Virus record (IMG/VR): IMGVR_UViG_3300005580_000026
Coordinates: 1-22,230 of that record
From: a virus
DNA: 22,230 nt
Reading direction: 5' to 3' (one strand)
Numbering within the stretch: the stretch's first letter is position 1; the number at the start of each line of letters is the position of its first letter. Position numbers and translations under genes: made by a program. This document shows, in pieces, positions 9,284 to 15,070 of the stretch. The notes beneath the pieces are model-generated. The model was not told the DNA's origin. It saw only the letters and a program-made list of their open reading frames with translations, and ran no database searches.

Positions 9284-9688
9284 TTAGGCGGAAATCTTCT
9301 CTTGGCGAGAATGTGCTGGCTCGGAAACCGTAACCGGAGAATCCTTAATGTCAAGAATCTTGACACTCATAGACTCACTGAACATCACGCCCGCATTCTT
9401 AGCAGACTCAACAGTTTGTTTACTTACAGGTGCGACGGAAAACACCAACTTCGGACGGCCTTTAGCCATATGAAGCGTGCCGAGTTCAGAGACGACCCCG
9501 TCATCCACAAACTTCTTAAGTTTCACACGGAGAGTAATCTCCTTCATATCAGGATTCTCAACCATTAACTGTGCAATCGTAAAATGACTTGCCATCAACT
9601 TAAGTTGGGTCTTGGTCTTATTCTTACGACCCGTCTTAGTTGGGGCGGTTGCGTCGATTTCCGTTGTATTATTTGTATTATTATTCAT
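9284..9688 (-). CDS. Small basic protein with winged-helix-like region (134 aa)
   Basis: An Asn/Thr-rich start (MNNNTNNTTEIDATAPTKTG) and basic RKNKTKTQLK lead into a likely winged-helix domain: helix HFTIAQLMVENPD (35-47), helix ITLRVKLKKFVDDG (51-64), then strand VVSELG, wing with MAKGRPK and strand LVFSVA (to ~86). The GRPK in the wing is AT-hook-like. The C-terminal 45 residues are probably flexible. It is monocistronic, with a near-consensus promoter 22 nt before the ATG and a terminator after the stop, and it uses G+C-richer codons than its neighbours. This points to strong expression, perhaps as an early regulator or abundant DNA-binding protein. No named family is claimed. Confidence 0.7.
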   Translation of the reverse strand: MNNNTNNTTEIDATAPTKTGRKNKTKTQLKLMASHFTIAQLMVENPDMKEITLRVKLKKFVDDGVVSELGTLHMAKGRPKLVFSVAPVSKQTVESAKNAGVMFSESMSVKILDIKDSPVTVSEPAHSRQEKISA

Positions 9689-9747: not shown

Positions 9748-11808
9748 TTATTGTATATTATCTTTTTTCAAGAACATAGCATTCATTGTTTTAGCAATTT
9801 CCGTTATATTTTCTACATTAACAAATGACGCACCATTACCGTACATTTTTTTGAAAATATTCCGTGAATGATTTGACGTGTCATATGAACTTCCTATAAA
9901 ATAGGAAAGTATCGAGTATCCTCTATCACGTATAGCATTAACTTGTTTCCTTGTATGAGTCGCTGCGACGTCGCCCGAATAATTAAAAATTACATTTTCA
10001 ACGTTGGAAGAGAAACATGGTTCTCCGTCTGAGAAGTTTAAGAAATAATTATCCACATTAAGTGAATTTTCCGATAAACAACCCATTATGGCCTCAAACG
10101 TCAATCCCTCAGGAGTAACATTTGCCGGATATAGATGTTTAAAAAAGTTTGCCACTTTACTAAATTTATCTTTTGTCGAATCATAAGCAATAACTATATA
10201 CGGAGTCTCCACGCCCCGTCCACTGTTGATGGTGGTTCTAAAGCTTACATTGACTTTAATATTATCAATCATGGAGGCTGCTTTACATATAGCAACTACA
10301 GTGGTGATAGTTTTACTCCATTTTTTACCCTGCATAGAACTACTAGCATCTACGCTAATATGAATAAATGAGTTATTATATTTATCAACTTGATTGTTAT
10401 AAAATACATTTTCATTGTTAAACCCAAGTTCGGAAATTGTACGTCTATCAATCTTTCCAGTCGATTTCCTCATGAATTTAGTAACATTAACGTCATTTCG
10501 TATTTGGAGTTTCTTTCCCAAAAGTTTCCCCATTGTAATACCATGTATGACAGCATTTTCCATTAATGGATCAGAACAGTTTTTAAACTGTTTAGAATTC
10601 ATCGGAAAATCATCGTCAAATAAAAGTTCTTTCGTTAGGTTTTTAACAACTATGCACTGTATTCCCTTGAATCCATAACCCTGTACCAAGTCTTTGCCAA
10701 CCTTCACCAATGTCATTCCACTCTTATCAATGGCATCTACCGTTGTTATTTCTTTTTTAGAGAGACTCTTTTTCTTAGTCTCACCATTTATAAATTTCTT
10801 TTGTTTTTCAAAGCTCTTCTTAATCTTTTCAATCTTATTATCGCTGAATTCAGATGTGTCTCCTCGACCCGTTTCTATATTGTTCTCATCCACATCCTTA
10901 AGTTTATCAGCACTTACATCTTTATTTAAATCATTTCCACCAATTAAATCTTCTTTGACAGTAGCATCCGACTGTTTATCGGATTCTTCCTTGGTTTGAC
11001 TTTGTCCGTCGGATGAACCGCTGGATGGAGAATTTGAGATTTCGTCTGATGGATCTTTGTCAACCGATTCCTCACCTATATTTTTTAAAATAATTTTACA
11101 AATGTCCACCGCGAGGTCGAGTCTATCCTTGGTGGTTTTCAATCTTAAAATGTTGGTATAATCAATCAATTTGAAAATTATATCCAATTCTGGTAATGCA
11201 CTTAAATCGGCGGATGGATTTGTAAAATTTATGATTCGGAACAAATATGCATCTATGGTTGGGACTCTGTATATTTTCGTTGCCAGTGACTTTGAAACTT
11301 CAACGGAATTAAAATATGTGTCATACAACGAGATATAATATCCACGATATCCAGGAGCGGAATCATATACGAATTTATCAATATAACGGTCTTCTACGTA
11401 ATTCAATACTGTTTTTGTAAGTTCTACAACAGACTCTTTACTTATGTTTTTAGGCATAGATAAATCATAAATTTCACGCGGAATTCTCTGCCAAAGAGTT
11501 TTGATTACATCAAAATCGCTTAAAAGAATATGTGAACCTTCATGTAAGGCCAGACCTACAGCTACATCGAAGTCTTCCTTTTCTTTAATATCAGCGGATA
11601 AATAGACTGTGCTTCCATCTGTCATATTAGCATCCTTATTGTTAAATAATACAGGAATACTCTTGTTGGTTAATATTCTTACAAAGTTACTTACCGCTCT
11701 CTTACCATTTGCAAGTTTAATTAGGTCAATATCAAATGATGAATATCCATCATCGGTGTCATAGATATTTACATCATTTAACCAAAAATCGGAATATATA
11801 ATACTCAT
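9748..11808 (-). CDS. CobT-like protein: zinc-peptidase-like domain plus VWA domain (686 aa)
   Basis: The N-terminal part contains LALHEGSHILLSDFD with HEGSH (89-93), an HExxH zinc-binding motif, followed by NYVEDRYID (136-144), the downstream Glu/Asp region that completes the site in CobT/VWA-type metallopeptidase-like proteins. Residues ~248-325 are an acidic Ser/Asp/Glu linker, followed by a Lys-rich stretch. The C-terminal VWA domain (~482-680) has an intact MIDAS: DASSS (487-491), Thr in TPEGLT (565-570) and SDGEP (593-597). Such proteins pair with MoxR/CobS-type AAA+ ATPases, and that ATPase is encoded 6 nt upstream (11815-12792). The pair probably forms a metal-inserting, remodelling or proteolytic machine; the target is unknown. 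In phages these are often named as cobalt chelatase subunits, but nothing here indicates cobalamin synthesis. Confidence 0.85.
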   Translation of the reverse strand: MSIIYSDFWLNDVNIYDTDDGYSSFDIDLIKLANGKRAVSNFVRILTNKSIPVLFNNKDANMTDGSTVYLSADIKEKEDFDVAVGLALHEGSHILLSDFDVIKTLWQRIPREIYDLSMPKNISKESVVELTKTVLNYVEDRYIDKFVYDSAPGYRGYYISLYDTYFNSVEVSKSLATKIYRVPTIDAYLFRIINFTNPSADLSALPELDIIFKLIDYTNILRLKTTKDRLDLAVDICKIILKNIGEESVDKDPSDEISNSPSSGSSDGQSQTKEESDKQSDATVKEDLIGGNDLNKDVSADKLKDVDENNIETGRGDTSEFSDNKIEKIKKSFEKQKKFINGETKKKSLSKKEITTVDAIDKSGMTLVKVGKDLVQGYGFKGIQCIVVKNLTKELLFDDDFPMNSKQFKNCSDPLMENAVIHGITMGKLLGKKLQIRNDVNVTKFMRKSTGKIDRRTISELGFNNENVFYNNQVDKYNNSFIHISVDASSSMQGKKWSKTITTVVAICKAASMIDNIKVNVSFRTTINSGRGVETPYIVIAYDSTKDKFSKVANFFKHLYPANVTPEGLTFEAIMGCLSENSLNVDNYFLNFSDGEPCFSSNVENVIFNYSGDVAATHTRKQVNAIRDRGYSILSYFIGSSYDTSNHSRNIFKKMYGNGASFVNVENITEIAKTMNAMFLKKDNIQ

Positions 11809-11814
11809 TGGATT

Positions 11815-12792
11815 TTAAAATGGTGGAGCGGCTGGGTCTATAATAACAGTTGTGTTTCCCTTTGTCTTGTTAGCGAAAAATGGAGAATCGGGTGTTCCTG
11901 AAATGGGTATATACTTCTGAACTAATTGTTTCATGTATGTACGTTCACTATTAGTTCCACCATCGTCGTCGAAGTTTGGATAAATTACATTCTCGGCAAT
12001 TTCTAGTAAGTTAAACCCATCAGTAAGAAGTTCCGCTGCTTCGGATACATTTCTCGTAGAAAGAAAATTGGAGAGTTTAGCGTCCTCCTGTCGAATGTTT
12101 ATTCTGGTATGTTCGGCTATCTCTACAATATTATTTAACAACGCCAACATATCCACGTTCGTAATACCAAATCTATTTTTTAATAGATCATACTCATTTT
12201 TCTTATCAAGCGGCGGCATTTCTATCTTCACTGAAAATCTATTTAGAAGTGCTCTATCCATCACCCGCGTCGCGGTGTATTCATTTCCGACGTTTGCTGT
12301 TGCTATAAACGTAACGTTCTTTGCAACCTTTACAACTTCACTGTCTTTCTTCTCATCGAGCCTAAGATATCGTTGAAGATCATCCAAAACAGTCATTAAA
12401 ATGTTCCACGCGTCGGGATGTGCCCTACTTATTTCGTCCAATAAAATGATGGCACCTTCAGTTCTAATTGCTTTTACAAATGTGGATTCATTAAAAATTG
12501 TTCCCGTTTCCTTTTCAAAGTGTGTATTACCAATCAACGCACTACGCGCATCTTGAGTGCTGCCTAAATTAAAATAGAAGAATCTGTCTTCTTTCTTCAG
12601 ACCAACCGCCACACTCTGAGCCGCAAGAGTTTTTCCGCATCCAGTCGGACCAACAATTAGAATATTCTTTCCACGAATTACACTTCTCACCAAATATCTC
12701 CATTTCAAATCATCAATAATTAAAGACGGAGGCTTCATCTCTCCACAATTCTCAAGAATAGACTTAACACTATTGGGTGATTTAATTTTCAT
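11815..12792 (-). CDS. AAA+ ATPase, MoxR/CobS type (325 aa)
   Basis: Starts MKIKSPNSVKSILENCGEMK. An ATG 8 codons upstream would lie within the promoter, so the internal ATG is chosen. Walker A is GPTGCGKT (48-55), Walker B IILLDE (115-120), sensor-1 ATAN (164-167), and the arginine-finger region is MDRALLNRF (178-186). FNLGSTQDARSALIG (75-89) and the insertion around DDLQRYLRLDE are typical of the MoxR/CobS/CbbQ clade rather than of clamp loaders. These hexameric ATPases remodel partners through VWA proteins, and the VWA partner follows after 6 nt. The C-terminal ~130 residues form the lid and tail. A TTGACA/TATAGT promoter puts both genes in one unit. Functionally a remodelling ATPase; the substrate is not known. 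Confidence 0.88.
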   Translation of the reverse strand: MKIKSPNSVKSILENCGEMKPPSLIIDDLKWRYLVRSVIRGKNILIVGPTGCGKTLAAQSVAVGLKKEDRFFYFNLGSTQDARSALIGNTHFEKETGTIFNESTFVKAIRTEGAIILLDEISRAHPDAWNILMTVLDDLQRYLRLDEKKDSEVVKVAKNVTFIATANVGNEYTATRVMDRALLNRFSVKIEMPPLDKKNEYDLLKNRFGITNVDMLALLNNIVEIAEHTRINIRQEDAKLSNFLSTRNVSEAAELLTDGFNLLEIAENVIYPNFDDDGGTNSERTYMKQLVQKYIPISGTPDSPFFANKTKGNTTVIIDPAAPPF

Positions 12793-12804: not shown

Positions 12805-12833
12805 ACTATACACCAAAAGTCACCGTATGTCAA
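12805..12833 (-). promoter_or_regulatory. Strong promoter of the AAA+/VWA unit
   Basis: Minus strand TTGACA, exactly 17 nt, TATAGT. The -10 ends 13 nt before the ATG at 12792, so the leader would be about 6 nt. Confidence 0.72.
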
Positions 12834-12845
12834 TTGTAAATAAAA

Positions 12846-12871
12846 AAAGAGCAATTATTACATTGCTCTTT
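12846..12871 (-). terminator. Terminator after the Lys-rich protein gene
   Basis: AAAGAGCAAT pairs perfectly with ATTGCTCTTT across a 6-nt loop; on the minus strand the stem ends in a run of seven T. It lies 23 nt beyond the stop at 12894. Confidence 0.85.
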
Positions 12872-12893: not shown

Positions 12894-13664
12894 TTACTTT
12901 TTCTTTATTTTTGTTTCTGGCAGCTTAAGTTCTTTTCCTTTACCACCCTTCATAAGATGCGTCTTTTCAGCTTTAGTTTGTTTAGGATAGGTGTATTTAA
13001 CCTTATCTCCAGCTTTAGGATGATCTGATAATTTGGAGAGCTTTCCGACTTCGGCCATAGGTTTATCCGGCAAGTCTTGCTCTTTCTTAACCGATACTTC
13101 GGTGTAGTCTTTGTTATCATTTTTCTTATCGGTGAGATTTTTAATTGGATTGGTCTTGGTTTCTGGGAGTTCAGACTCTTTCTTTACCACATCCTCCGAG
13201 TTTTTTGATGCCTTATTATAAGCCTTCTTTACGTAATTTCCTTCTTTAGATTCCAACTTTTCCTTTATAAAGTCTTTCACGCCCTTTGCGTCTAGATTCA
13301 TCTTCTTCTCTCTGTCAGAGTTGTCTTTGAAGTATACCACTTCGAAATTATCCTGATACATCGGTCGTATTTCGATGTGATGTGGTAAACAACCGCACAT
13401 TTCATAAAATCCCCTTTTACTTTTCTTTATGGAAAAATTCTTATTGTGTTCTTTAACAAACTTAGAAAGAGAAACCATTGTCTCATGTACTGATTTCTCA
13501 GTTTCAACCTTAATCTCTTCTAGGGATTCTCGAATTATGGATTTTAACGCATTTATAGTGGAGTTAGCGTTGGTTTGTTTAATATCAACACTTCGTTTAT
13601 TTGAGCTTTTACGTAGGTCTATAATCGATTCTTTTATAATCGATGTTAATTCTTTCAATGTCAT
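12894..13664 (-). CDS. Lys-rich protein with repeated short motifs, unknown function (256 aa)
   Basis: Three parts are visible. The N-terminus has two similar amphipathic segments, LKELTSIIKESIIDLR and INALKSIIRESLEEIK, resembling the 'LKxIIKE' helices common at the start of phage structural or tail-associated proteins. A compact middle region (about 62-140) has two Cys in EMCGCLPHHIEIRP and a strand FEVVYFKD. From ~145 on it is disordered and strongly basic, with a motif repeated three times: KKESELPETK, KKEQDLPDKP and KELKLPETK. The repeats could be docking or processing sites. It follows the Mom-like gene after 15 nt and ends at a strong terminator. No family is assigned. Confidence 0.68.
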   Translation of the reverse strand: MTLKELTSIIKESIIDLRKSSNKRSVDIKQTNANSTINALKSIIRESLEEIKVETEKSVHETMVSLSKFVKEHNKNFSIKKSKRGFYEMCGCLPHHIEIRPMYQDNFEVVYFKDNSDREKKMNLDAKGVKDFIKEKLESKEGNYVKKAYNKASKNSEDVVKKESELPETKTNPIKNLTDKKNDNKDYTEVSVKKEQDLPDKPMAEVGKLSKLSDHPKAGDKVKYTYPKQTKAEKTHLMKGGKGKELKLPETKIKKK

Positions 13665-14473: not shown

Positions 14474-15070
14474 TCAGATCTTTTCAACATTTTTTAAAAC
14501 TCTGAGACTTCCTATGTAACCGTGTTTATCCGTCTTTACTGACACACATTCTACTCGAATAGACTTACCATTGGCATCTACAATTCGATATTCGTCCTCA
14601 TACATTCGACCATCTTTAACACAGTCATTCCACAAATTTACCACTCTTTCTCTATCTTCTTCATGAATTGCATTCTTCCAACCATTATCTAAAAAATAAG
14701 ACACGTCTTGTTTTACAAGTTTTATATATGGTTTGTTAACCCAAACACACCGGCCGTCATCCGCACTCTCAAATATGGGTTCCTCTCTATTGTCAAGTAT
14801 CCACCGTTGTCTTAAGAATATTTTCTCAGTCATGTCGGTATTGACTTTCATCTGATCTGATATTAGGTTTATCTTATCTTTAATCGACCCGCCGCCATTT
14901 GGAGTTATTTCTTTAAATATAGTATCCACTTGATCGTGAACTCGTTTTATAGATAAAAATTGGTTTTTTACAAACACATAACATACTCTGCCAAATTTAT
15001 ACAAAATTCCCATAATAGTTAATATAGCTATAATAACATCCAACCGAGTTAAAAAATAGGATAAATCCAT
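14474..15070 (-). CDS. Membrane-anchored PAS-domain protein (198 aa)
   Basis: The N-terminus (about residues 8-34, with VIIAILTIMGILYKF) is a single membrane segment. A coiled linker follows (about 40-88, FLSIKRVHDQVDTIFKEI and later KINLISDQM). The C-terminal ~105 residues are a PAS fold of the PAS_3 kind: EPIFESADDGRCVWVNKPY, HEEDRERVVNLWNDC, DEYRIVDANGKSIRVE and YIGSLRVLKNVE. There is no kinase, cyclase or other output domain. A bare membrane PAS protein might sense a ligand or redox state, or bind a host sensor protein, but this is inference. The gene follows the helicase terminator and precedes the Mom-like gene by 23 nt. Confidence 0.78.
   Translation of the reverse strand: MDLSYFLTRLDVIIAILTIMGILYKFGRVCYVFVKNQFLSIKRVHDQVDTIFKEITPNGGGSIKDKINLISDQMKVNTDMTEKIFLRQRWILDNREEPIFESADDGRCVWVNKPYIKLVKQDVSYFLDNGWKNAIHEEDRERVVNLWNDCVKDGRMYEDEYRIVDANGKSIRVECVSVKTDKHGYIGSLRVLKNVEKI

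Follow-up and report, generated by a model that had tools for sequence, protein, structure and literature searches.

The 22,230-base viral contig analysed here over its whole length (the window) carried T4-like replication genes for SSB, UvsX, 5'-3' exonuclease, gp41-like helicase, and a clamp-loader subunit, and it harbored on the minus strand a gene pair composed of an AAA+ gene (12792-11815) and, after a 6-bp gap, a VWA gene (11808-9748), both with intact open reading frames. The two genes may encode one machine, an ATP-driven, VWA-tethered metallopeptidase/remodelling machine that would act early, probably on DNA-replication complexes; we put the probability of this whole reading at about 0.5. 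An earlier note on this DNA had described a complete pair of AAA+ and zinc-peptidase-VWA genes, which translation confirmed, every residue named there being found in its place. The two genes and two motifs of the ATPase were located as follows:

11815 to 12792, minus strand: MoxR/AAA_5-type AAA+ ATPase of 325 aa (Pfam, PHROG, and solved-structure profile matches; invariant catalytic residues)
12628 to 12651, minus strand: Walker A GPTGCGKT, residues 48-55 (by translation)
12433 to 12447, minus strand: Walker B ILLDE, residues 116-120 (by translation; D and E kept in 63/63 relatives)
9748 to 11808, minus strand: predicted zinc-peptidase-like plus VWA protein of 686 aa (residue conservation and predicted model)

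The AAA+ protein matched Pfam AAA_5 (E=1e-19) and PHROG 249 'porphyrin biosynthesis' (E=8e-31), and a profile search of solved structures gave matches including midasin and NorQ. Translation further placed sensor-1 at N167, the Arg finger at R185, and sensor-2 at R247; D119, E120, N167, and R185 were identical in 63/63 relatives, which bore out the earlier claim of intact Walker A, Walker B, sensor, and Arg-finger residues. The AAA+ motifs and an adjoining VWA partner with a complete MIDAS (see below) are those of a MoxR-type AAA+/VWA pair. In one related locus (L078, 5877-7972), the AAA+ gene was interrupted right after Walker A by a GIY-YIG homing-endonuclease-like ORF, and a comparison of this insertion with Rfam intron families found none.

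The VWA protein was modelled in full with pLDDT 78.8, displaying a helical N-terminal domain joined by a low-confidence linker to a VWA region, and its elements were as follows:

11065 to 11745, minus strand: predicted N-terminal zincin-like domain, residues 22-248 (AF2 model, weak zincin matches, and hhalign)
11530 to 11544, minus strand: HEGSH (H89, E90, H93), predicted zinc site plus catalytic Glu (H, E, and H invariant)
11377 to 11403, minus strand: NYVEDRYID (N136, E139, D140, D144), with NYVED at 11403-11389 (invariant in 69 relatives)
10384 to 10500, minus strand: putative AAA+-pore 'finger', residues 437-475 (analogy with the NorD VWA finger; low model confidence)
9760 to 10380, minus strand: VWA domain, about residues 477-683, with MIDAS D487-x-S489-x-S491, T565, and D594 (structure match plus invariance)

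The N-terminal domain modelled alone reached pLDDT 91.4, with HExxH and NxxED mid-way along two predicted helices (NxxED in the middle of helix 124-150). Its structural matches were weak (Z at most 5.9) and were mostly zincin metallopeptidases of several families, among them LTA4 hydrolase, selecase, M1 aminopeptidase, DPP III, ArdC, IrrE, and M4 proteases; Foldseek alone gave no match to this domain below E 0.9, an absence given no weight here, and when PDB sequences were searched with the N-terminal profile, all matches were unrelated (the best being cyclodextrin glycosyltransferases, E about 0.001). In hhalign, the N-terminal profile scored 88-97% with several other phage/plasmid VWA proteins, 68% and 29% with the two most distant ones, and 0.3% with that of Thermus phage TSP4. 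HExxH and the downstream Glu made up a gluzincin-like signature conserved in 69 close and 12 distant relatives, and E139 is predicted as the third zinc ligand. The domain is predicted as a probable zinc metallopeptidase-like domain.

The MIDAS DASSS occupied 10350-10336 on the minus strand, and T565 and D594-G595 were placed by translation. In the predicted model, the C-terminal half folds like the NorD VWA region: its best PDB match was NorQ-bound NorD (Z 20.5, 269 residues, rmsd 5.9), followed by the Rea1 MIDAS (Z 19); the whole protein matched structural models of phage 'CobT-like' proteins. The NorD VWA finger is the model for pore insertion (PMC13036017), and R447 and G451 of the putative finger were invariant in an eight-protein alignment.

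An alignment-based scan of IMG/VR gave at least 424 contigs encoding relatives of the VWA protein, 80 of which were kept; the 69 non-redundant relatives were mostly 42-56% identical to the window protein, and at such divergence H89, E90, H93, N136, E139, D140, D144, D487, S489, S491, T565, and D594 were identical in 69/69, so the motifs are not due to chance. A second alignment brought together 12 proteins of phage or phage-plasmid origin (cyanophage, Gordonia, Bacteroides, haloarchaeal, Rhizobium, and enterobacterial) and the window family (17-28% identical to the reference row, except for one close pair at 61%), and it contained 13 invariant columns, all in HExxH, NxxED..I, DxSxSM, and DG; N, E, and D of NYVED were accordingly kept in the 12 distant proteins as well. 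Since these columns fell in both metal sites, the two sites were more conserved than any other feature of the superfamily as sampled. The earlier note had pointed to an HEGSH...ED zinc-site-like motif and an intact MIDAS (DxSxS, T, D) in the partner and had held that a lack of conservation in close homologues would refute its view; both sites stood, the residues being invariant in close and distant proteins alike.

Thermus phage TSP4 had the AAA+-VWA pair, but its VWA protein carried no HExxH, so that the VWA part would be able to work without this motif, a point against the proposed machine; an open frame of marine virus AG-345-E15 likewise lacked the HExxH region. The Azospirillum plasmid VWA protein (L107, 4534-6678) displayed HEAGGH, i.e., HExxH plus one residue, with NIIEDVRIE intact, and its gene adjoined a DUF3150 gene near a lambda-exonuclease gene. 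Such genes have been reported as core in T4-like cyanophages (PMC3037559, PMC8651126), and they were also found in haloarchaeal viruses and in about a thousand plasmid records, enterobacterial for the most part. When viral contigs were scanned with single proteins, neither the window protein nor the LR756508 protein gave matches, and a genome-wide scan gave only two matches in cellular genomes; the better of these, a 15-kb contig in a Nitrosopelagicus MAG, carried the pair plus phage-like genes and was probably a misbinned phage fragment.

Two signals were located upstream of the pair:

12846 to 12871, minus strand: intrinsic-terminator-like hairpin closing the upstream unit (folding z -4.9)
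12805 to 12833, minus strand: sigma-70-like promoter TTGACA-N17-TATAGT, 11/12 to consensus (consensus match; enriched in relatives)

The promoter (12833-12805) came just after the hairpin (12871-12846). The AAA+ start was taken as ATG at 12792, the ORF being extendable to TTG at 12816, inside or beside the -10 element. Promoter-like sites with at most two mismatches were found upstream of AAA+ in 26 of 63 relatives vs 11% of shuffles, and upstream of VWA in 6 of 66 regions; a second 11/12 site of the same type (9737-9710) preceded the next gene in the window. Of the claim that a single near-consensus promoter controls both genes, the site itself stood, and its common control of the pair is plausible by consensus matching. 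The next gene (9284-9688), with this promoter of its own, encoded a small conserved protein in which the motifs RKNKT and GKGRP were well kept.

The locus comparison was applied to 83 loci. The AAA+ gene belonged to the AAA+ cluster of the window in 77 of them and lay just upstream of VWA in most, mostly -71 to 47 bp apart; in rearranged loci it was mostly within a few kb of VWA (13 kb in one case). The conserved neighbours of known function in the window family were class I RNR, helicase, clamp loader, dNMP kinase, UvdE, exonuclease, and DNA-modification genes, with glycosyltransferase farther out. The pair was found in other lineages (i) between gp46/47 and gp45/44 in a T4-like cyanophage, (ii) near primase/helicase in Gordonia phages, (iii) near DNA polymerase in a Bacteroides phage, (iv) near DnaB in Thermus phage TSP4, (v) directly before dnaE in phage-plasmids (in one case with a sigma factor between), and (vi) near lambda-exonuclease plus toprim in the Azospirillum plasmid; these lineages were sampled via matches to the pair itself, and the proximity is stated without a background rate. 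In Hardycor1, the pair is located in the replication/accessory module (PMC7911831). The DNA-replication context claimed for the window holds across its family and several unrelated lineages, and it may simply mean 'early region', which also houses accessory genes.

Several other genes around the pair were recorded. In 41 relatives (e.g., L068, 6611-6949), a small secreted-looking protein was encoded just upstream of AAA+; it had AGDREWATVGKVLTGV as a conserved stretch and a tail rich in PVV and His, and the window carried no such gene. The window contained a curious combination of a Mom-type DNA-modification gene (PF25680, 13680-14450) and two genes of the DruA family (PF14236, 7950-9137 and 5062-5826), which is known from Druantia defence; the nearer DruA gene was present in 61 of 83 loci. 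The window also contained a gene (14474-15070) whose PAS-domain product carries a hydrophobic N-terminal segment.

Protein identities of AAA+ and VWA were correlated at r=0.90-0.93, and across 39 shared loci the clamp-loader subunit, AAA+, VWA, and a charged protein encoded upstream displayed r of about 0.87-0.93, compared with 0.42 for NrdA; linkage and common descent also contribute to such values. NrdA and NrdB gave r of 0.38-0.58 with the pair and several core genes 0.8-0.9, with NrdB and UvdE poorly correlated in the larger comparison. Judged by these sequence identities, the pair evolves with core genes such as the clamp loader, unlike the adjoining RNR genes. A role in RNR maturation had been prompted by nrdA (65/83 loci) and nrdB (50/83 loci) beside the pair in most relatives, and it was weakened because the two genes do not co-evolve with the pair. 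The charged neighbour was as follows:

12894 to 13664, minus strand: conserved charged upstream neighbour (same strand in 73/83 loci; r=0.92 with AAA+ and 0.90 with VWA)

Its product was fast-evolving, with repeated amphipathic LKxIIRESLEEI-like segments, and is a candidate partner, substrate, or client of the pair.

In the proposed mechanism, the MoxR-type AAA+ protein would form a hexamer, as expected from its family, and the C-terminal VWA of the partner would dock on it, probably with the finger inserted into the ring pore as in NorD, while the MIDAS-bound metal would grip an acidic residue of the client. In the N-terminal domain, H89, H93, and probably E139 would bind zinc, with E90 as general base. 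ATP-driven remodelling would be coupled to client cleavage, a coupling proposed because the N-terminal domain is taken as zinc metallopeptidase-like; the action would be early and, by gene context, most likely on phage/host replication/recombination proteins, not corrin metallation. As a tentative extension, which we consider possible, unrelated phages and phage-plasmids might keep, as a core function of their replication modules, a widespread and so far unrecognised ATP-driven metalloprotease directed at the replisome, in which the MIDAS grip couples the AAA+ ring to a zinc peptidase; cellular CobT would then maybe be a peptidase-dead relative of it.

MoxR plus metallopeptidase-VWA pairs are already known in jumbo phages, and the window pair is a further variant. 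For group 2.2 jumbo phages, virion assembly was proposed by analogy with ATV p618/p892 (PMC7824862), a viral MoxR-VWA pair with experimental evidence for a part in tail development (PMC4124505). Compared by description (PMC7824862), the group 2.2 pair has the same logic as that of the window, i.e., MoxR ATPase and a vWA partner with an N-terminal metallopeptidase, and a pair acting as virion-assembly chaperone plus processing peptidase could use the metallopeptidase on structural proteins. This remains an unlikely explanation of the window pair: the annotated neighbour clusters in the 83 loci, many short neighbours carrying no annotation, included none that was structural and were mostly of replication, nucleotide, or DNA-modification functions, and annotated relatives of other lineages lay near replication genes. 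Moreover, the Salicola jumbo phage SCTP-2 carried a DUF2201_N/DUF2201 metallopeptidase-VWA gene with AAA+ close by (L112, 5587-6882 and 8222-9580), a parallel case of this design but from a different family, with only a weak match to the window family; its protein matched both PF13203 and PF09967, whereas the window VWA protein had no Pfam match to either. No match to the pair was found in Atu_ph07.

NorQ-NorD shares MoxR AAA+ and a C-terminal VWA with MIDAS with the window pair, its NorD being closest to the VWA half, and NorQD inserts iron into cNOR (PMC13036017). The pair could by this likeness, and by the frequency of nrdA and nrdB in its loci, be a pure NorQD-like MoxR-VWA remodeller or metal-insertion chaperone, with the zincin-like domain binding or delivering metal, e.g., to diiron NrdB. 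We find this rather improbable, since the catalytic-type Glu of HExxH was as invariant as the ligands, NrdA and NrdB correlated poorly with the pair (see above), the window had no nrdAB at the position where relatives carry it, and several pair-bearing phages had no NrdB, many of these records being fragments. The NorQD accounts (PMC13036017, PMC9976466) do not mention HExxH, and the NorQD client is a membrane NO reductase. RavA-ViaA likewise shares a MoxR AAA+ with a VWA partner, but the N-terminus of E. coli ViaA was unrelated to that of the window protein (hhalign 0.5%). A protease for host takeover, aimed at a defence or transcription complex of the host rather than at the replisome, would suit the early-region position and the Mom and DruA-like genes of the window; it is very unlikely, because conservation this broad and inheritance like that of core genes, across unrelated hosts, speak for a general target.

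The remaining comparison was that with cobaltochelatase. Cellular CobS-CobT, like the window pair, is composed of AAA+ and a C-terminal VWA; unlike it, the CobT examined has no zinc site, and it works with CobN. In the comparison, which covered one complete protein and an aligned fragment of solved CobT, the Cereibacter CobT beside CobS displayed no HExxH and had IYEAMEAARCEA in place of NxxEDxRI, and hhalign of the phage N-terminal profile with cellular CobT gave 0.1%. The window VWA protein scored 14.8 bits with Pfam CobT domain PF11775 (cut-off 21) and had no match to PF06213, and phage-plasmid relatives passing the Pfam CobT cut-offs still carried HExxH; the C-terminal half of a profile of eight phage proteins aligned with CobT at E=4e-9. 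CobN (PF02514) was found in none of 21 phage records, including those of 484, 303, and 252 kb, with control genomes positive and the window genome being a fragment; the earlier note, which had named co-occurrence with CobN as evidence against its view, was right to doubt the CobS/CobT names. The CobS/'peptidase' of cyanophage S-H9-2 and the CobS/CobT-likes of Gordonia, Bacteroides, haloarchaeal, and SSU5-like phages or phage-plasmids shared HExxH, NxxED, and MIDAS with the window protein at about 17-21% identity, with AAA+ nearby and often close to replication genes, as in the window; the spacing of HExxH to NxxED was shorter in most phage CobT-likes (20-30 residues in several) than the 45 residues of the window. 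Viral CobST has been proposed to recruit host CobN and boost cobalamin as auxiliary metabolic genes (PMC8651126), in keeping with the CobT alignment and Pfam matches above, but a cobaltochelatase role is the least probable of all given CobT without HExxH and NxxED, an N-terminus unmatched by the phage profile, no CobN in the 21 records, the class I, B12-independent RNR carried by many relatives, and inheritance of the pair like core genes rather than exchangeable cargo. Altogether, the data weigh against the cobalamin reading and, more weakly, against virion assembly.

In published descriptions such genes figure as auxiliary metabolic genes for vitamin B12. The peptidase-like site, which is conserved here but missing from a true CobT, and the lack of CobN together argue that the vitamin B12 names are mistaken and that a protein remodelling/proteolysis step common in phage infection has been overlooked; a relative in PhiR41_1, the host of which is E. 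coli K-12, makes the function testable.
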